Assembly: GCA_020432165.1 (NCBI GenBank)
Contig: JAGQGU010000040.1
Location: 1-59,841, forward strand
DNA length: 59,841 nucleotides
Source: Thermomicrobiales bacterium
GTDB lineage: Bacteria > Chloroflexota > Chloroflexia > Thermomicrobiales > UBA6265
Direction: 5' to 3'
Shown here: in pieces, positions 1 through 9,992 of the stretch
Position numbering within the stretch: the stretch's first letter is position 1
How the letters are laid out: the number at the start of each line of letters is the position of its first letter
Made by a program: the position numbers and the translations under genes
Notes under the pieces: model-generated
Database searches by the model: none
What the model saw: the letters and a program-made list of their open reading frames with translations, nothing else
What the model was told of the DNA's origin: nothing

Positions 1-23
1 ATCCTCACATGCGTGGGGACCAC
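1..23. CRISPR. Partial type I-E CRISPR repeat at the window edge
   Basis: The first 23 bases form a hairpin-capable element whose minus-strand reading begins GTGGTCCCCACGCATG, a typical type I-E repeat start. It lies 21 bp beyond the cas2 stop codon, where an array is expected. The rest of the repeat and array are outside the window. Orientation is unresolved: the 5' end looks like a minus-strand repeat, but the stem CCTCAC/GTGGGG pairs fully (one G-U) only when read on the plus strand. The short gap leaves no room for a leader beside cas2. Confidence 0.6.
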
Positions 24-44
24 ACTACCGATTTCCGCGCCGTT

Positions 45-419
45 TCAACCTTCTGCTACTTTACAGTCGTCTCTGCTTACGGGCAAGTCATGCACCGCCA
101 GTGCTCGTTCCTCCTTCGCCATTTTCACCTTGTCATTTGGGCTCAGTGGCTTACGAAAAAGCGCTAAACCTTCCCAGCTCACGAGTTCGGAGCTGGTTTC
201 TCCGTGTGTTCTGACTGCGTATCCCTGCTCGGTGTTGGAGTTATGGAGCATGATCGCACCGCCATTCGGCGCTTTATCGCAAATCTTCTCCCATACCAGG
301 TCTCGTACCAGGGCAGAAACATTACCGACAAATACACCGGTTTTCGGCTCTACGAACCAGCGCGTCAATTCTCCGCGAAGCGACGATGGCACGCTTTCCA
401 GCATGATGACAATCACCAC
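45..419 (-). CDS. cas2: CRISPR adaptation protein Cas2 (type I-E)
   Basis: This 124-aa protein is Cas2e, which forms the Cas1-Cas2 integrase complex that inserts new spacers. The N-terminus MVIVIMLESVPSSLRGELTR and the following GVFVGNVSALVRD are characteristic of Cas2e. Its start overlaps the cas1 stop by 7 bases (413-419), so the two are translationally coupled. It is slightly longer than the roughly 95-110 aa usual for the family because of a C-terminal tail. It is the last gene of the cas operon and is followed at once by a CRISPR repeat. Confidence 0.95.
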   Translation of the reverse strand: MVIVIMLESVPSSLRGELTRWFVEPKTGVFVGNVSALVRDLVWEKICDKAPNGGAIMLHNSNTEQGYAVRTHGETSSELVSWEGLALFRKPLSPNDKVKMAKEERALAVHDLPVSRDDCKVAEG

Positions 420-1438: not shown

Positions 1439-2286
1439 CACGCACCTCCGGCAGGCGCCAAACTCAAGAGGCCAAATCCATACGCTTTGGCAGGACCGAT
1501 TCCATGAACCAGAGCCTCACGAAAGGCCTCGACATCCGATACGCGCAACAGTCCTTCGAAGACCATGGCCTTATGCGAGAGTTGGATATCACCGCTCTTC
1601 CAGCCCGTTTGCATATCACCCGTAATCGGATCAGGCGACACACCTGGGCGGGCGATATCGAACCCGCAGCGTTGTCCCTGCTTCTCCAGCCATTGGAAGA
1701 GAAGATCCTCCGCCGAGAACGGGTGTCGAAACTCGTCCAGATCATTACCAGCTTGCACCCACTGCCTCTTTTCGAGCGACAAATCGGTGACTGGTACGCG
1801 GGGACCATCCATCCTGGCGGGATCGGCCACCCCGCTGGACCGTTCTCGACGCGCAAGTTTATCGCTAGCTTCCTTCGGAAACGTGGATGCCCAAACATTC
1901 CACGGTATGCGCTTGGTGGGATTGGCACGCAACCGAAATCGAAAAACGTCCCCGTTCTGCAGTCGATCCGGGAGCGAGCTGATGTTCTTGACCAGCCCAT
2001 CTCCGAAGAACTCGGACTCATGCAGCAGCATCCCCTCACGCCGCAGGTATGCCCAATCTGGCTCAACGGTCGACTGCACAATGACATCGATGAGCCCCTC
2101 ACGGCTCCCCTTCACCGGATCGAGCCGGAACAACACATTGTGCTCACTCCGATCACCGACCGGGAATCCACGCATAAGCAGCGCATGCATACACTGACTG
2201 TTGCTCAAGGAACGCATCACCTCACGGCTCACCGGATTGAGACGCAGCCGGGAGAGATAGAGTTGACCCTTCTCAGTTGCAATCAT
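1438..2286 (-). CDS. cas6e: crRNA-processing endoribonuclease Cas6e
   Basis: Cas6e (CasE/Cse3) cleaves the repeat hairpin of pre-crRNA and stays bound to the 3' handle as a Cascade subunit. The 282-aa protein has the RAMP layout: an N-terminal segment with LSRLRLNP, a likely catalytic His34 in SQCMHALLMRGFP, and a C-terminal glycine-rich loop GIGPAKAYGFGLL. Its start overlaps the cas5e stop by 14 bases. If the mini-array upstream of cas3 is transcribed, this enzyme would be expected to process its degenerate hairpins as well. Confidence 0.95.
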   Translation of the reverse strand: MIATEKGQLYLSRLRLNPVSREVMRSLSNSQCMHALLMRGFPVGDRSEHNVLFRLDPVKGSREGLIDVIVQSTVEPDWAYLRREGMLLHESEFFGDGLVKNISSLPDRLQNGDVFRFRLRANPTKRIPWNVWASTFPKEASDKLARRERSSGVADPARMDGPRVPVTDLSLEKRQWVQAGNDLDEFRHPFSAEDLLFQWLEKQGQRCGFDIARPGVSPDPITGDMQTGWKSGDIQLSHKAMVFEGLLRVSDVEAFREALVHGIGPAKAYGFGLLSLAPAGGA

Positions 2287-3070
2287 CGCTTAACTCCTTC
2301 TCTGGATACCTCGTGTCGACTTCGCAAAACACCACCCCACGCGGTCCAAACTGACGGGTAGCGAAGGCTGCACCGATCGGTTGATCCATACGGGTGGCAT
2401 GAGCGTCCGATCCAGATGTCTCAGTCACTGTCCGTAGCCGCTGTTGTCGACGACCAAACAAATTGCTGATGCGGAGATGTTCCTGTTCTGGCAACCAGGT
2501 CTCTGTCCTGAAAACCTCATCAATGCATCCTTCCTTCACGCCCTTATCTCTTGGCATAGCCACCGGAATGGAGGGCACATATCCTCGTCGACCGAGCCCG
2601 ATCGGATAAACAGGCTTTCGCAATGCACAATCAAGCTCTTCCAGCAATGCGACGTCATCGCCCTGAAGCGCCACCAGAAATGCGGCATCTTGCAGATGGT
2701 AACGATTGGAGATGGATGAGCCCTGACGCTCGATCTTCTTTGTACCCTCCAATCGTGCCCATTCATCCTTGAGTGATGGCACTTTGTCTGCGGCTTTAGC
2801 GATACCAGCCGAGGTATCGCCACCACCGGCGGTCTGGAAATCAACGCACGGAACGCCTTCCAGATCAACGCGGACGCCCATCTTGAGTGCAGCAAGGTCG
2901 TCGACTGATTCATCCCGACTGCGGCCTTGTGCCGCTGCCAGAATCCCGATAACACCGCTTTTCGATGGCTCAAGCAGGGTGTCGCGTTCGGACCACCGGC
3001 TACTGATGCCCCAACTCTGCATCGGTCCGAATAGCTGCATGATCAGGCAGTGAGGATTATCGTTGCTCAT
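2273..3070 (-). CDS. cas5e: Cascade subunit Cas5e
   Basis: Cas5e (CasD) caps the 5' handle of the crRNA in the Cascade complex. The 265-aa sequence begins with the family signature LIMQLFGPMQSWGISSRW, followed by TLLEPSKSGVIGILAAA, both typical of Cas5 RAMP proteins. It overlaps cas7e upstream by 14 bases and cas6e downstream by 14 bases, inside a tightly packed operon. No frame damage is visible. Confidence 0.95.
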   Translation of the reverse strand: MSNDNPHCLIMQLFGPMQSWGISSRWSERDTLLEPSKSGVIGILAAAQGRSRDESVDDLAALKMGVRVDLEGVPCVDFQTAGGGDTSAGIAKAADKVPSLKDEWARLEGTKKIERQGSSISNRYHLQDAAFLVALQGDDVALLEELDCALRKPVYPIGLGRRGYVPSIPVAMPRDKGVKEGCIDEVFRTETWLPEQEHLRISNLFGRRQQRLRTVTETSGSDAHATRMDQPIGAAFATRQFGPRGVVFCEVDTRYPEKELSDDCN

Positions 3071-4241
3071 GGCTGGCCTCCTGCGCCGCCACTACCGCAC
3101 TAATCCACCCATCGACTGATGTTTCGGATGTGATTTGGGTTCCATGGAGCGACTTGGCATAGTCACCCAAAGCGACAGCATGTAGTGCGGTGATGCCATC
3201 AGCACCATACATATCGGTCATCTCCGTCCAGTGCTTCAGCAACTCCAGGATCGATTTTCCCAGAATATCGCCCTTCCCTTTCTCAACCGGATTCACAAAC
3301 GCATTCGCCAGCGACCACCGACCAGCATCGCGGACAACGGCAAATGCGAAGGCGGGCAAATTCTGCGCCGCAAAACTATTCTGTTTTCCGGTCGGAATCG
3401 AACACATGAACGCTCGCAGATACGCTTTCAGCGCGTTGGCGGCGAGCTCGCTATCACCCCCAAGGTTTTCCGCAAGTTGTTCCATATCGATATTGGTATA
3501 GCGATACAACGTGGACGAGTCGAAATCCACCATACCCATCATGCCGGCTCCGGTATCTTCCTTAAGGTTAAGATCATCGACTGCGGTGAAGAAATCCCAC
3601 TCAATATCGACGGCGTGTGTGGAGATGGCATGAGCTACCTGGGTGGCGCCATCTACATTCTTGTCCGGCAGGTCGGCAAGCATACGACCGAACAAGGCGA
3701 GATCCACGGCCCTGCCACCATCAAGCACCGCCAGGGTCGCCCGCTGCACATCCTCGGGAACCGTTGCCTTAAGATCCTTCTTCTTCGAACCAGCAACGGC
3801 TTTTTCCACTGCACCAGCAAGCTCGTCCCAGTTATCCAGCGCAACCTGCACCAGGCCGTCGATCTCCTGCTGTCCGAGGAAGAGAAGGTATTGCGTGCGA
3901 GGCGCATCTTCCGGGCTCTTGCTATCGGGTGCAAACCCGAGCCCACTCAATAGTGCCTTGGCAACGTTGAGAGAAAGCTCCGCATCCTTGCCGGCAGCCT
4001 TAAATCTGGCCGCAAGACCATGATCCTTGTTGAACATCAACTGCCGGGTACGCACTGCACGTTGATCTTCCGACACCAGATCGGCATTCTCAAAAGCTTC
4101 CCGCACAGCCCGCTTCCAGCTTTGGCTGGAGACGCGTGCGCGGCGATATCCGCCGAACATCGCTTCCTTTGGCTGTCCCTGATCATCGCGATTGATATTG
4201 GAGGGTGCGAGATTCTGGAGAATGTGAACTTCAACAATCAT
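3057..4241 (-). CDS. cas7e: Cascade backbone subunit Cas7e
   Basis: Cas7e (CasC/Cse4) polymerises along the crRNA to form the Cascade backbone. The 394-aa protein starts with MIVEVHILQNLAPSNINRDD, a hallmark of the family, and continues with GYRRARVSSQSWKRAVR, which is also strongly conserved. The gene overlaps cas5e downstream and is separated from cse2 by 30 bases, the largest gap between the core cas genes. Confidence 0.96.
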   Translation of the reverse strand: MIVEVHILQNLAPSNINRDDQGQPKEAMFGGYRRARVSSQSWKRAVREAFENADLVSEDQRAVRTRQLMFNKDHGLAARFKAAGKDAELSLNVAKALLSGLGFAPDSKSPEDAPRTQYLLFLGQQEIDGLVQVALDNWDELAGAVEKAVAGSKKKDLKATVPEDVQRATLAVLDGGRAVDLALFGRMLADLPDKNVDGATQVAHAISTHAVDIEWDFFTAVDDLNLKEDTGAGMMGMVDFDSSTLYRYTNIDMEQLAENLGGDSELAANALKAYLRAFMCSIPTGKQNSFAAQNLPAFAFAVVRDAGRWSLANAFVNPVEKGKGDILGKSILELLKHWTEMTDMYGADGITALHAVALGDYAKSLHGTQITSETSVDGWISAVVAAQEASHEQR

Positions 4242-4271: not shown

Positions 4272-4931
4272 CTACGCTTCAGCAACCGACAATCCATCCC
4301 CTGATGGTGCCTCTTTATCTGTGGCCATAAACCTTTGACCACCGTACCAACCGCGGGACCAACGTAGCTTCACGGTCTCGTCCCAATCCCTCAAATCTCG
4401 GGCAAGCTGGATCCAGTCAACTGGCTGCTCGCTTTTGTTCATCAATGGCATCATCACTCGTGCGAGTCGACTGTAAATCTCATCCGGCCGTGCATCGAGC
4501 AGGAAGTTGATACGGCGATCATTCGCCTTCGTCTCGTCATCGCTTCCGCGGACACCACCGTGAGCCTGGAGAAACGCATGTGTAATCGGTCGACCATAAC
4601 GAAGCCCGTCTGGCATATAGGCGGTGTGTGGATGCGTGGTATAGAGCAATGCAGCCTGATACAGGGCCCGATACTCTGGCGAACGATCATCCCAGTTGTC
4701 CGGAATGCATGGTTCAATCACCCAGGCTACGGTCGCGACTGGCGTACCTGCTCCGATACGACCACGGCGCAGTGCGGCCATTTTTCCGGTGTCAACCAGC
4801 GTACGAAGGTATCTCCGATTGGCGGAATCTTCCGGTGCCGAGTTCAGCGCCTCCCCCGACCAGTTGCGAAGGTTCAGGAAGAGACTCTGGGCCTTCTTGT
4901 GAAACTCCTCTTCTGAGACATATCGTGTCAT
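4272..4931 (-). CDS. cse2: Cascade small subunit Cse2 (Cas11e)
   Basis: Cse2 (CasB, Cas11e) is the all-helical small subunit that stabilises the displaced strand in the Cascade R-loop. The 219-aa product begins MTRYVSEEEFHKKAQ and contains the family-like NRRYLRTLVDTGKMAALRRG. I chose ATG 4931 because its ATGA overlaps the cse1 stop. A longer frame upstream would run into cse1. The C-terminal region LARDLRDWDETVKLRWSRG fits the last helices of Cse2 proteins. Confidence 0.93.
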   Translation of the reverse strand: MTRYVSEEEFHKKAQSLFLNLRNWSGEALNSAPEDSANRRYLRTLVDTGKMAALRRGRIGAGTPVATVAWVIEPCIPDNWDDRSPEYRALYQAALLYTTHPHTAYMPDGLRYGRPITHAFLQAHGGVRGSDDETKANDRRINFLLDARPDEIYSRLARVMMPLMNKSEQPVDWIQLARDLRDWDETVKLRWSRGWYGGQRFMATDKEAPSGDGLSVAEA

Positions 4932-6493
4932 ACCGTGATCTCCTCTCGTTGCTCGATCAACCCAATTTTCTTCAGTTGCGAATAGAGATAGTTCGAACCG
5001 GTGCATTGCGCCTGATACCAACGATCACCGTACATGGTGAGCGATGCATCCCGGAAACAGGATTCACAGAGCCGTCTCAGTTGATCTTTCCAGGTCGCCA
5101 AAGCCTCAGTCGAGTCCTCCAACGCGCTCAGGTTTGTGACAAACTGCTGGAACTCACGATCAATGCGACTCCAATACCGTTGCTCGATAGCGATACGAGT
5201 GAGTATTGCTGCGATATCGCCGCTATCCGCGTTGCCGCCATCGCCCGCCAAACCGATATTGGCGAACCAGCGCGCGGCTGGACGTAGCGCATCACCCCAT
5301 GCGGACTCTGCGTACCTAATTGCTTCTTTAAGAATGTAGCGACGATCTTCATCTGAAAGAATCGTCAACGGCATCGCCATCCGATCCATCCTCCAAAGGG
5401 AGATTCGGGCCTGATTATTGACCAAACCAGTCGCAATCACCTTCGGCACCAGATCGGCCAGATCATCATCTTGAATCCGGTCTTGGAGATTGCTCACAAC
5501 CAAGGGTGGTTCGTTGTCTGCGCCCGATACAGTTGCGAACTCGATGATACCGTCAACATCTCGCCATAAAGCCCTATTCTCAAAGAAGTTCCTTGGCAGC
5601 CTGGGCCCATCTTTTTTCTGAGCAAGATATCGCTTGAAAGGATCGCGTAGAGTCTCACTGACACGATCGAGTGCTAGTCCTCGATCATAATTTACCTGTG
5701 ACACTAGGCCATCGGGATTCGGTAGCAGTCGTATGCGTCGACTTCGAAAGGTATAGAGATCGGTCAACCCTTTTGCTGCACGCTCGTCGTTATTTGGCAC
5801 ATTGATCTCATCTAGCTCCCAAAACGGACAGTCGTCGTCTATTCCGAGTGCTGGAGGAGTTCCTATGCCATACAGAACCAAGTTGAGCACCATCGTTTCA
5901 TAGAGAGTCTCACCTTCAAAGCTCACTGCATAGCCAGCAATCATCGGGGAGTTCGAGAAGTTGCCTCCTGTTCCTCCTGTTCCCGCAAATCCATACTGAT
6001 GGGCTACCAGAAGTGATCTAGCAGCAGCCCCGGGCGTCAAAGCGACCCCCAAATCGTCTCGGTTATGATCAAAAAGTGTCGTGTTACTGATACTTGCAAC
6101 TTCTGGCAATAAGCGACCCGCTGGATGCCTTTTGTCGCTCACTGCAAAGTCGGTGACCTGTCCGAACGGAGCAACGGGATCGAAGAGACTAAACCGATGC
6201 TGCCAGCGATCCAGATAAGCGTCGAACGACATGGGATCAAATCCCTGCTCCCGTTGCTGCCATAGCTCATACCAGGCATCGTCGGTTGCTGGACCTTGTA
6301 TGGTGCGATGGGCGATCGCGAGGAGAAAACGCAGGATCACGGTATACGCCAGAGGCGATGGTTCGTTCAGCCCGCGGGCCTCGTGTGCACGATGGAAGAA
6401 CTCTCGTATCCCCCATTCCTCATTCGATCCATCCAGTGTTGTCACTGGTAACCAGGGATCGCGAACGAGATTGAACTCCGGAACTTCACTCAT
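4928..6493 (-). CDS. cse1: Cascade large subunit Cse1 (Cas8e)
   Basis: Cse1 (CasA, Cas8e) recognises the PAM, opens target DNA and recruits Cas3. The 521-aa protein has the typical start FNLVRDPWLPV and the LAYTVILRFLLAIAHRT helix found in Cse1 proteins. It overlaps cas3 upstream and cse2 downstream by 4 bases each (ATGA junctions). Its PAM preference cannot be read from sequence, so the proposed TAG and AAG PAMs near the cas promoter rest on analogy with the E. coli system. Confidence 0.95.
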   Translation of the reverse strand: MSEVPEFNLVRDPWLPVTTLDGSNEEWGIREFFHRAHEARGLNEPSPLAYTVILRFLLAIAHRTIQGPATDDAWYELWQQREQGFDPMSFDAYLDRWQHRFSLFDPVAPFGQVTDFAVSDKRHPAGRLLPEVASISNTTLFDHNRDDLGVALTPGAAARSLLVAHQYGFAGTGGTGGNFSNSPMIAGYAVSFEGETLYETMVLNLVLYGIGTPPALGIDDDCPFWELDEINVPNNDERAAKGLTDLYTFRSRRIRLLPNPDGLVSQVNYDRGLALDRVSETLRDPFKRYLAQKKDGPRLPRNFFENRALWRDVDGIIEFATVSGADNEPPLVVSNLQDRIQDDDLADLVPKVIATGLVNNQARISLWRMDRMAMPLTILSDEDRRYILKEAIRYAESAWGDALRPAARWFANIGLAGDGGNADSGDIAAILTRIAIEQRYWSRIDREFQQFVTNLSALEDSTEALATWKDQLRRLCESCFRDASLTMYGDRWYQAQCTGSNYLYSQLKKIGLIEQREEITV

Positions 6494-9369
6494 TCCTCAC
6501 CTCCCGCGCCACTATTGGCGCTATTGCGAACAATCATCACGCCACAGCGATCATCCAGCCGAATCACAGTCTTCCCCAATACTGCTTCTCCATCCGCATT
6601 CAGCAGAATGAGCCGTCGATAACGCAGATGGGCTGATTGATCCCAGGCTGGAGGCACCTCCATGGCGATCGCAGCTCGTACCACGTCGTAACTGCTTACC
6701 GAAACCGAATGATGCAGCAGCGTCCGCACCTGGTCGTTGGTGAATGGATTTTCGAGATCACCCTCCGGATCAAACCCAAGCGAAGTCACCTCCGCTTCCG
6801 AAAGAATCACGAGCGAAACTGTTGGGTCCCCCAATCTGGTTAGTGCCAACCTGCTTTGATGAGCTTCTGGTGCTTCTTCTGGATCTTGTTTCATTTGCGT
6901 CAATCGTACCAGAACATCCGTTCGACTTTCTAGTCGTTCCCGATCAAGATCTGGAATCAGCACCGATTCCGACGTCTTCTGATCCATACGCGTGGCTTTT
7001 AACCAGGCTGCTTCGGCCTCCATGTAGCGCGGGCCTATGCCGTCTGGAACAATCGGGTCATCGCCATACGTCGCTTCGATCAGCGCCTCGACATCATCCG
7101 GAATGACAATCTGATCGCGACCAACCAATGCCAACCAGGATCGCAGCAATACATAATCGCCATAGACAATCTTCGAGCCATCAAAGAACTCAGGTCCGTC
7201 CCCTGCGTCGATATTGTCAATGCCGATCAACCACAGTCGCGGCTTGTGGAATGCAGCGGGACGTTGGTCATCCCATCGACGATGTCGCTGCAAGCGGCCG
7301 GCTCGTTGAAGCAACAAGTCAGTGGGCGCAAACATCGAGACCATAAGGTCAAAGTCCAGATCGAGGCTTTGCTCGATCACCTGCGTTGCCACCACGATAT
7401 GTCGCCACGGACGGTTTGGTTTGCCATCTTCCCCTGCATCCTTGCCAAACAGATCAAGCACGCGATTCTGGATCGCCGCTCGTTCTTTCTGCCGAAATCG
7501 GGCGTGGAACAGGGTTAGCTCATCCTCAGCAAAGGATTTTTGGAGGTGCGTGAAGCATTCCTGGGCACTGGCAACGGTGTTACAGATGATGGCCACGTTG
7601 CCACCATCCTGCAACTCATCTTCAAGTCGAATGGCGAGATCATCCCACATCGACTCGGGTGCGGATGGATACCACTCCAACTGCAGTGTGGTCGGTTCAT
7701 CATCGGCACTGCGTTCGACGTCGATCGACTGCATACGAGTGTCGTCAATAGCCGAAATTCGAGGATACGGTGCTAGTTCACCGGACGGCGCGTTCCATTT
7801 CGCTCCCCTGGCATAGGCTGCGAGCATCTCTTTCGTGCGATGTCGGGGAAGAGTCGCCGAAAGGATCACTACTGGCGAGCCCATGGCACCAAGGAACTCC
7901 AGTAGTCGATCAAAGAGCGAGCTCATGTAGACGTCGTACGAATGTACTTCATCGAAGATCACTGTTTTGCCACTGAGGCCAAACATCCGGACGAAGAGAT
8001 GGGGTGTCAGGAGTACGCTCATCAAGGCTTGATCGACTGTGCCGACGCCATACCGCGCCAGTAGACCATGCTTTTTACGCGTGAACCAGCGGGCGCGACG
8101 GACAACATTGTGGGCATCCACAACCTTATCTTTTGGATCGGCATCCGGATCCGTCAGTGCATCAATGCGTTCGGCCATCGCCTGGAGCGAATCTTCGGCA
8201 TCTCTCTGCTCCATCTCGTCCATGGCGCTGAATTCCGCCATACCGTGAAGGAGGTGCAGTGGCACAATCCGCGTCCGGCTGCCCTTATCAGCATGTGCTT
8301 TCAGATGCGCCCGTACCCGTTGGTATAGCTGATCCGATGTCGCCATGGTGGGAAGCGCGAAGTAGGTACCAGTGATATCGGCTGTTTCGGCGTAATAGGC
8401 GGCAATCCAGAGCGCGATCTCGGTCTTGCCCCATCCCATCGGGATCTCGACCACGGTCATCCCTGGTCTCGACATGGAGCGGGTGAGATCGACCGCCTGG
8501 CTCTGCGACCGTCGTGGCACAAAATCAGGAATGGTCAAAATCGTGCTTGCCAAATCTTCACTGGCAATAGTCAACGGAGGACTCGCCCAGCCGGTGAAGG
8601 TCAACGCCTTCTCGGCCGATTTTTGCGCGGTCACCAATGCCGCCGCATATGACTCGGCTGGTTCGAATCGAAACTCAAAATAGTGCTCATCGGAACCAAT
8701 CCAGTCGGCAACGGAGATGAGTCCGGCCAGCCAGAGCGAGTCCTCATATGTTGGAAAGTTAGAGTCACTGATAAGGTCGGCGTTGAGCTTTCCGACCATG
8801 GCATCGTCTATCGCGAACGCCTCTCGCAAGTGTCGGAAGATGTCGCGATGGAGCTCAGCCCAGGCCTTCTGACCAGTCCTCTTGACAGTATCCGGCCCCT
8901 TGAGCGCATCATACTCGCCACTCGTCCAAAACCGACCATGATGTGCAGCCGTGATCTCGGCGTAGCGCTTACTGATACGCGTTGTCCAGCCAAACTCCTG
9001 CTGGAAAAGCGGTACCAGCAGTCCCCAGGAGATAAGGCTGTGGCGCAATGCGGTCTTGTTGGCGTCGATGGGAAACTCCGCACCATAGAGCGATGACAGG
9101 CGTTTAGCCTGTTCCGGAGCCATGTTCTGGAATCGAGGACTCGCCTTACCAAGATCATGGAGCGACGCCAGGAAGCCGACGAATCGACCGGCTTCCTCTT
9201 CATTCAATCCAAGACGAATGCAGATGCGATCTTTACTCTGTTGTGGAAGGGCTTTCTGCCAAAGGAGTCCAGACACCGCCCCGACCTCAAGGAGGTGCCA
9301 AGGCAGAGCATGCCAATCGCTTGGATCCGCCTTTGAGGTCTTCGCCCAGAGCTGCCAGCTATCGATCAT
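6490..9369 (-). CDS. cas3: CRISPR helicase-nuclease Cas3
   Basis: Cas3 is the HD nuclease and superfamily 2 helicase that degrades DNA bound by Cascade. The 959-aa protein has an N-terminal HD domain with SLHDLGKASPRFQ (His71-Asp72), a Walker A motif PMGWGKTEIAL, a DEVH box in VIFDEVHSYD, and a helicase C region with QVIEQSLDLDFD. Its start codon lies inside the end of a 72-aa upstream ORF (11-base overlap), so translation is probably coupled. All motifs look intact. Confidence 0.97.
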   Translation of the reverse strand: MIDSWQLWAKTSKADPSDWHALPWHLLEVGAVSGLLWQKALPQQSKDRICIRLGLNEEEAGRFVGFLASLHDLGKASPRFQNMAPEQAKRLSSLYGAEFPIDANKTALRHSLISWGLLVPLFQQEFGWTTRISKRYAEITAAHHGRFWTSGEYDALKGPDTVKRTGQKAWAELHRDIFRHLREAFAIDDAMVGKLNADLISDSNFPTYEDSLWLAGLISVADWIGSDEHYFEFRFEPAESYAAALVTAQKSAEKALTFTGWASPPLTIASEDLASTILTIPDFVPRRSQSQAVDLTRSMSRPGMTVVEIPMGWGKTEIALWIAAYYAETADITGTYFALPTMATSDQLYQRVRAHLKAHADKGSRTRIVPLHLLHGMAEFSAMDEMEQRDAEDSLQAMAERIDALTDPDADPKDKVVDAHNVVRRARWFTRKKHGLLARYGVGTVDQALMSVLLTPHLFVRMFGLSGKTVIFDEVHSYDVYMSSLFDRLLEFLGAMGSPVVILSATLPRHRTKEMLAAYARGAKWNAPSGELAPYPRISAIDDTRMQSIDVERSADDEPTTLQLEWYPSAPESMWDDLAIRLEDELQDGGNVAIICNTVASAQECFTHLQKSFAEDELTLFHARFRQKERAAIQNRVLDLFGKDAGEDGKPNRPWRHIVVATQVIEQSLDLDFDLMVSMFAPTDLLLQRAGRLQRHRRWDDQRPAAFHKPRLWLIGIDNIDAGDGPEFFDGSKIVYGDYVLLRSWLALVGRDQIVIPDDVEALIEATYGDDPIVPDGIGPRYMEAEAAWLKATRMDQKTSESVLIPDLDRERLESRTDVLVRLTQMKQDPEEAPEAHQSRLALTRLGDPTVSLVILSEAEVTSLGFDPEGDLENPFTNDQVRTLLHHSVSVSSYDVVRAAIAMEVPPAWDQSAHLRYRRLILLNADGEAVLGKTVIRLDDRCGVMIVRNSANSGAGGEE

Positions 9370-9577
9370 CGCTCACCTCCGTCCGATTATCCCCCTTATG
9401 TCCATTATCGGACGCAGCAGGGGCAGGCGCATCGGTTGCCGGAGGTGATTGTGGCGGCGCGAAACCGATTGGAGGTTTTGGAATGGATCGCTCGGTAACG
9501 AGCTCCCCGATTCCGACTTGACCACCACCGACAATGCAGATAGATCCGAACTGGACGTGATATTGATACTTAGGCAT
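9359..9577 (-). CDS. Small 72-aa protein coupled to cas3, unknown function
   Basis: I do not recognise this protein. It starts at ATG 9577, five bases after a perfect Shine-Dalgarno AAGGAGG, and its stop codon lies 11 bases inside cas3, so ribosomes finishing it could re-initiate on cas3. The first half (MPKYQYHVQFGSICIVGGGQ onwards) looks like beta strands with a glycine turn. The second half is rich in Pro, Ala and Asp and probably disordered. It is the first gene of the cas operon and lies downstream of the promoter at 9747-9775. It could be a Cas3 accessory factor, a leader peptide for coupling, or a regulator; the sequence does not decide. Confidence 0.72.
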   Translation of the reverse strand: MPKYQYHVQFGSICIVGGGQVGIGELVTERSIPKPPIGFAPPQSPPATDAPAPAASDNGHKGDNRTEVSDDR

Positions 9578-9610
9578 AAACGCCTCCTTGAGTTGTGTAT
9601 CCCAAGGAAT

Positions 9611-9740
9611 CCGCGATGCGATATAATGGTTTTCGGTTCCAACGAGCCAAATGATCGCGTTCGCGCGATTCCCGCCGGGCGAGACGAATGGTAGTCGTCT
9701 CGCCCGGATTATGGGTTCTAACCAGCCACGCACGGCTGGT
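9611..9740 (-). promoter_or_regulatory. Structured 5' leader of the cas operon
   Basis: Between the predicted transcription start (about 9740) and the small ORF lies a 163-nt leader with three strong hairpins in the minus-strand RNA. These are ACCAGCC/GGCTGGT at 9721-9740, right at the 5' end; a perfect 13-bp stem at 9675-9687 with 9695-9707; and an ATCGCG/CGCGAT stem with a CGAA loop near 9655-9670. No long U-run follows the 13-bp stem, so it is not a standard intrinsic terminator. It may stabilise the mRNA or attenuate transcription. Confidence 0.55.
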
Positions 9741-9746
9741 CTGTTC

Positions 9747-9775
9747 AGTATATCGGCTGCAATTTGGATATGCAA
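9747..9775 (-). promoter_or_regulatory. Predicted sigma70-type promoter of the cas operon
   Basis: On the minus strand, TTGCAT (9775-9770) and TATACT (9752-9747) are separated by exactly 17 bases, a good housekeeping -35/-10 pair. Initiation would fall near 9740, giving a 163-nt leader before the small ORF and cas3. The -35 box is only 5 bases from the inverted repeat at 9781-9838. It would lie inside the 32-nt R-loop footprint (9773-9804) of a Cascade guided by the mini-array. Confidence 0.65.
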
Positions 9776-9780
9776 ATTGG

Positions 9781-9838
9781 TAACGAAATCCAACCTCATC
9801 AACTCTATGATGTAAGAGTTGTTGTGGTTGGATTTCGT
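9781..9838. promoter_or_regulatory. Inverted repeat: predicted self-target of the mini-CRISPR guide
   Basis: Two arms of about 23 bases (9783-9805 and 9816-9838) are inverted copies of one another with two differences. The spacer of the mini-array at 9895-9926 matches the left arm (minus strand) at positions 1-16 and 19-24. It matches the right arm (plus strand) at positions 1-5, 7-8, 10-16 and 19-22. The three bases 5' of the two protospacers are TAG and AAG, both accepted as PAMs by E. coli type I-E Cascade. The last 8 spacer positions do not match the left arm. The element could instead be an operator for a protein regulator. Confidence 0.75.
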
Positions 9839-9856
9839 CTATCTGCGTCATCTAGA
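9828..9856 (+). promoter_or_regulatory. Possible promoter of the mini-CRISPR
   Basis: TTGGAT (9828-9833) and TCTAGA (9851-9856) are spaced by 17 bases on the plus strand, and the start would fall a few bases before the first degenerate repeat at 9866. The -35 lies inside the right arm of the inverted repeat, so guide-directed Cascade binding there would also shut off the guide's own synthesis. The -10 is weak. Confidence 0.4.
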
Positions 9857-9865
9857 CTAGTTGGT

Positions 9866-9955
9866 GGAACTCCTCACGCATTGGGGATGAACCAAGTTGA
9901 TGAGGTTGGACCTCGTTAAGGGAGACTTGGTGTCCACGCAAGTGGATATGAAAGG
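9866..9955 (+). CRISPR. Degenerate mini-CRISPR (ψR1-spacer-ψR2), CreR-like guide RNA
   Basis: Two diverged type I-E repeats lie exactly 61 bp apart, the native I-E period. ψR1 (9866-9894) ends in GGGGATGAACCA, giving the 8-nt handle ATGAACCA (E. coli: ATAAACCG), and its stem is CCTCA/TGGGG. ψR2 (9927-9955) has a changed but still paired stem, TCCAC/GTGGA, and a GATATGAAAGG-like end in place of GGGGATGAACC. The single 32-nt spacer (9895-9926) partly matches both arms of the inverted repeat beside the cas promoter. Degenerate repeats, one spacer, a target in the cas promoter and partial complementarity are the defining traits of known Cas-regulating RNAs. I infer that Cascade loaded with this RNA represses the cas operon without triggering Cas3. 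Confidence 0.82.
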
Positions 9956-9957
9956 AG

Positions 9958-9992
9958 TGAGTCGTAGGCAGTGCTTACGACTCATCTTTGTT
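9958..9992 (+). terminator. Terminator of the mini-CRISPR transcript
   Basis: A 9-bp perfect stem TGAGTCGTA/TACGACTCA (9958-9966 with 9976-9984) is followed by TCTTTGTT. It begins three bases after ψR2, so it would end a short RNA of about 120 nt made from the mini-array. Confidence 0.6.

Follow-up and report, generated by a model that had tools for sequence, protein, structure and literature searches.

The locus described here raises the question of whether an inverted repeat, lying between a type I-E cas operon and a divergent mini-array, provides two Cascade targets at which a single guide would control both the cas promoter and its own. The window, i.e. the whole stretch of DNA analysed (59,841 nucleotides; Thermomicrobiales bacterium, GCA_020432165.1, contig JAGQGU010000040.1), is one contig of a 3.2-Mb draft genome. 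The anatomy of the locus, the guide/target matches, their uniqueness in the genome and the recurrence of the arrangement elsewhere are directly established by the present analysis.

The cas operon and its divergent mini-array

The cas operon on the minus strand of the window is of type I-E and complete, comprising cas3 (helicase and HD nuclease; 6490-9369), cse1/cas8e (4928-6493), cse2/cas11e (4272-5021), cas7e (3057-4241), cas5e (2273-3070), cas6e (1438-2286), cas1e (413-1441) and cas2e (45-419). The first gene of the operon is a 72-aa ORF (9359-9578, minus strand), which has a strong Shine-Dalgarno sequence (AAGGAGG), overlaps the cas3 start and is without a Pfam or NCBIfam match. The presumed 5' leader of the operon includes a GC-rich hairpin with a perfect 13-bp stem (9675-9707), flanked by T-runs on neither side. 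At the other end, the contig boundary cuts a canonical array repeat after its first 23 nt (1-23, minus strand); the repeat begins 21 nt past the cas2 stop codon (window 1-47), leaving no space for the usual leader, and the array may be transcribed from the cas promoter or from inside cas2. Another contig (C8, L052), 9105 bp long, consists of nothing but array; its 148 repeats measure 29 nt, its spacers as a rule 32 nt, and the repeats come in two variants, i.e. the consensus GTGGTCCCCACGCATGTGAGGATGAACCG and one with ...CCGTGGGG...

Upstream of the cas operon and divergent from it lies a plus-strand mini-array (9864-9955) with one spacer and degenerate repeats. Compared with the consensus of the 148 repeats of C8, repeat 1 (9864-9894) reads GTGG-AAC-TCCTCACGCAT-TGGGGATGAACCA, and repeat 2 (9930-9955), which reads GTGTCCACGCAAGTGGATATGAAAGG, likewise resembles the array repeat; the hairpins of both are retained in an RNA fold of the mini-array (z -4.8). 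The guide transcript would end at an intrinsic-terminator-like hairpin (9957-9985, plus strand), detected by a terminator scan and as an inverted repeat. The spacer spans 9895-9929, of which positions 1-24 form the targeting part, and the 29-nt register of the array repeat places spacer position 1 at 9895, precisely where homology to the left arm of the inverted repeat starts.

An ordinary CRISPR array has several identical repeats and spacers from foreign DNA, whereas the mini-array has two diverged repeats and one spacer; a search of its guide against phage and plasmid sequences gave no match. Its properties are those of a Cas-regulating RNA (CreR; Liu et al. 2023, Cell Host Microbe 31:1481, as summarised in passages of the reviews PMC13131331, PMC12737573 and PMC12948488), i.e. 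a single spacer flanked by repeat-like sequences, near cas and apart from the main array, a partial match to the cas promoter in which PAM and seed are present and PAM-distal pairing is absent (0/8 at the left arm), and a complete cognate I-E effector operon. CreRs autorepress cas in types I-B, I-E and V-A through partial promoter complementarity (PMC13131331, review), and the repression is lifted by competing crRNAs or Acr proteins (PMC12737573, review). The basic mechanism is already known, and the inverted two-target operator makes the guide of the window a variant of it. With CreRs, as those review passages present them, the guide shares a mini-CRISPR beside cas, partial cas-promoter complementarity and a type I-E effector; on the same comparison, via reviews only, it differs in having two targets that face each other within an inverted repeat, at the cas promoter and at the presumed guide promoter respectively.

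Two facing targets and the predicted promoters at them

The arms of the inverted repeat (9783-9806 and 9815-9838) are 24 nt long and 92% complementary, and the targeting part of the spacer (9895-9918) matches the left arm (9781-9804) over 24 nt, also at 92%. The left, protospacer-like target (positions 1-24; 9781-9804, minus strand) has a TAG PAM (9807-9805) and pairs at 22 of 24 positions, with mismatches at 17 and 18 only and no pairing (0/8) over positions 25-32. Our re-alignment thus reproduced the original prediction for this arm, including its clean seed. Elsewhere in the window the spacer matched at no more than 16/24, and 300 shuffled spacers gave at most 16/24 against the target region, so the match is not a matter of chance. 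The right target (positions 1-22; 9817-9838, plus strand) has an AAG PAM (9814-9816) and pairs at 18 of 22 positions, with one further pair (1/8) over positions 25-32; its mismatches lie at 6, as originally predicted within the seed, at 17 and 18, and at 9, which is just beyond the 8-nt seed and had been passed over.

A search of the 3.2-Mb genome with NAG plus spacer positions 1-5, 7-8, 10-11 and 13-16 returned the two arms as the only zero-mismatch sites; all other matches contain 2 mismatches, and a reversed control pattern gave roughly the same number. Both PAM-like triplets are present as claimed, but the 'AG' of each PAM is itself part of the arm, so that the PAM and seed of the second site do not count as independent evidence; if an inverted copy differed at two of 24 positions, its PAM 'AG' and the greater part of its seed would come through unchanged in about 4 of 10 cases. 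The left arm differs from the right arm at 6 and 9 and from the spacer at 17 and 18, and the right arm differs from the spacer at all four. Since it differs least from both others, the left arm appears to be the centre of the three copies, the simplest reading being that spacer and right arm may each have been copied from it, or selected to match it. At positions 17-18 the spacer has CC where both arms have TT; CC permits a self-fold of the spacer (GAGG/CCUC) in the predicted RNA, which may be coincidental. Rfam matches to the inverted repeat were to miRNA hairpin models, far below the gathering score, and were rejected. A search for close relatives whose DNA would allow footprinting of the arms gave none among 300 related genomes, and a single-protein scan of GTDB contigs likewise found nothing.

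The strongest predicted promoter in the region sits at the left target. With an approximate E. coli sigma-70 matrix taken from general knowledge, applied to a host not closely related to E. coli, the predicted cas operon promoter (9747-9775, minus strand) scores within the best 1e-5 of all hexamer pairs of the window, with TTGCAT as -35 box (9775-9770), a 17-nt spacing and TATACT as -10 box (9752-9747). The left footprint had been said to cover the -35 box; the full 32-nt protospacer footprint (9804-9773) does touch it, but with its unpaired end only, the pairing stopping 5 bp short, on the upstream side. A near-perfect 20-bp dyad (CAATTTGGAT/ATGCAAATTG, 9760-9779) also overlaps this box and is possible as a protein operator. 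On the plus strand, the best promoter between the arms and the guide (9828-9858) is weak (top 4e-4 with the same approximate matrix), with TTGGAT or TGGATT (9828/9829) as -35 box and TAGACT (9853-9858) as -10 box; its -35 box lies within the right arm, which bears out the proposal that the right footprint covers a possible promoter of the guide. A rival plus-strand promoter, with its -10 box (TATGAT) in the loop between the arms, scores similarly, and the left arm alone might therefore also affect guide transcription.

Findings in E. coli bear on how Cascade might use such sites. A PAM and a 5-nt seed permit Cascade binding there, in agreement with the premise of the original prediction, position 6 is less important, TAG is among the PAMs proposed as optimal by earlier studies, and more than 18 bp are required for interference and priming (PMC5904413); as cited in a passage of the same paper, just 6 unpaired PAM-distal bases steeply cut promoter repression by Cascade. 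The 24-nt pairing at the left arm, with its open distal end, therefore predicts stable, probably non-cutting binding, with a repression strength that is uncertain. The PAM ends of the two protospacers face each other, 12 bp apart, so that two Cascade bindings may exclude each other, as judged from the size of the complex.

CreR-like loci upstream of other cas3 genes

We surveyed 113 upstream regions of I-E cas3 genes, a set that includes a few loci twice. First, strict thresholds (19 loci) missed true guides and were revised for the survey; loose handle thresholds gave hundreds of false, array-derived matches, which were discarded. Beyond the window, five surveyed loci have a degenerate mini-array and an AAG-flanked target upstream of cas3. 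The target precedes a regulator-like gene, itself upstream of cas3, in L072 (Herpetosiphonaceae); in L085 (Acidobacteria) a single target lies just upstream of TTGACA and adjoins a promoter reading into the mini-array and onward to cas3. L117 (Thermomicrobiales) shares the divergent layout of the window, as does L164, from the same class as the window, both with the target downstream of the -10 box. L078 (Chloroflexi) has two targets, namely a strong one with an AAG PAM over the -35 box of a promoter ahead of the mini-array, and a second, with an ATG PAM and of 9 nt, over the -35 box of a promoter ahead of cas3, both promoter predictions being weak.

The targets in the surveyed CreR-like loci lie over or adjoin predicted promoters, and the five loci, unrelated in sequence, follow the same guide/target logic. 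Four of the five have a single target; a facing pair is found in the window only, and none of the five has an inverted pair. One-spacer mini-arrays with a degenerate second repeat also precede cas3 in L136 and L149, where no target at 12/14 or better was found; they are probably CreRs whose complementarity is shorter or whose target lies far away. A match in L069 was not counted, as it sits in an ordinary array and has a poor PAM.

Type I-E Cascade flips out bases 6 and 12 of the target. We compiled, blind to position, the spacer-target pairs that match at at least 12 of the first 14 positions with any PAM, 12 pairs in all. Seven of them have a good PAM; these are precisely the mini-array cases, and 8 of their 11 mismatches within positions 1-14 fall at bases 6 or 12, compared with one of ten in the five bad-PAM control pairs (Fisher p 0.006; binomial 2e-5 for 8/11, 3e-5 without the right arm; the numbers are small and the PAM set was chosen). 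The concentration of mismatches at flipped-out bases therefore points to an evolutionary signature of Cascade pairing rather than to mere repeats; the left arm of the window, with mismatches at 17 and 18, does not fully follow the pattern. The survey yields a signature by which CreRs may be found, i.e. an AAG PAM, flipped-base mismatches and absent distal pairing, and which allows single and double wiring to be compared among them.

Proposed mechanism and competing readings

We consider it very likely that the mini-array encodes a CreR. Such a crRNA-like RNA would be processed by Cas6e and loaded into the type I-E Cascade of its own operon; Cascade-CreR would bind the left arm via the TAG PAM and about 24 nt, adjoining and partly covering the cas -35 box, and would thereby repress cas. 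With positions 25-32 unpaired, the R-loop would remain incomplete and Cas3 would not cut, and diversion of Cascade by ordinary crRNAs or anti-CRISPRs would relieve the repression. The right arm, with its AAG PAM and weaker pairing, would most likely be a second operator of lower affinity over the guide's own promoter, such that Cascade-CreR bound there would also limit CreR supply. The role of the right arm, in particular, is what we infer from the sequence, as are transcription, loading, binding and repression. The explanation as a whole, with a CreR at the left arm and a second operator at the right, appears probable; that the right arm functions at all is an evenly poised question. For the strongest form of the proposal, in which one CreR guide, acting at two facing and mutually exclusive Cascade sites between divergent promoters, sets both the Cas level and its own, the chances seem somewhat below even.

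The original prediction of dual control at two divergent promoters accordingly holds in part. Repression of the cas promoter by the guide is well supported by the anatomy and by five parallels, and L078 has one target at each of two promoters; that the guides of L078 and L085 seem to be directed at their own promoters supports dual control. The right-arm PAM and seed are, however, largely inherited, its mismatches at 9 and 17 are real, its promoter is weak and its role is predicted only. A serious contender, if one we would not quite back, is a CreR for which only the left arm matters, the right one being a by-product of inverted duplication or mere guide promoter sequence. This reading would fit the better pairing of the left arm, the single target in 4/5 other CreR loci, and the ease with which inverted copying explains the right-arm PAM 'AG' and most of its seed; it accounts less readily for the retention of an optimal AAG PAM and a full seed save position 6, for the position of the right arm over the best guide promoter, and for the independent occurrence in L078 of two targets at two promoters.

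A dyad placed between divergent promoters is a classic form of operator, and the separate dyad at 9760-9779 lies on the -35 box, so the inverted repeat could be the operator of a protein regulator serving both promoters, with an incidental resemblance to the spacer. We regard this as unlikely, given that a protein half-site would seldom be as long as these 24-nt arms, that the arms begin at the PAM and the spacer homology at spacer position 1, that the interval between cas3 and the mini-array contains no regulator gene (one encoded elsewhere might act in trans), and that five loci unrelated in sequence show the same guide/target logic. Nor does decay of an ordinary array with a chromosome-derived spacer, i.e. 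accidental self-targeting, seem at all credible: I-E systems do acquire self spacers and the repeats are degenerate, but the target lies exactly at the cas promoter, PAM-distal pairing is absent, the guide has its own terminator, and there are five independent parallels with AAG PAMs. A CreTA or CrePA module, in which the guide represses an RNA or protein toxin instead of or besides cas, is improbable too. CreA of the type I-B CreTA has the same anatomy of two degenerate repeats, one spacer-like segment and a partial promoter match, and directs Cascade-guided repression (PMC9458426), and the transcript from the left promoter would begin with a structured leader, followed by the 72-aa ORF without a family; against this, the target of CreA is a toxin promoter and that of the window the cas promoter, no toxin was found, the promoter runs directly into cas3, the start of which the small ORF overlaps, toxin families are absent from that ORF (protein families were covered; a small RNA toxin might still be present) and the transcript is that of the cas operon, and only about 25 nt separate the right arm from the mini-array. 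Autoregulation of type II-A Cas9 by tracr-L, reported in PMC11417352, is similar in that an effector represses its own operon via a limited guide match, but involves another effector and RNA, and no crRNA-like mini-array.

If a CreR acts at both arms, the CRISPR effector would serve as a dual autoregulator, acting on its own operon as well as on the guide that controls it, and both the steady state and the response to anti-CRISPRs would be set in ways beyond the one-target CreR model. The facing sites would then be an RNA-guided counterpart of the classical divergent-operator switch, with a tandem version in L078. The two targets of L078 lie in the same sense, within a stretch about 292 to 94 bases ahead of the cas3 match, as a tandem analogue of the inverted pair of the window.
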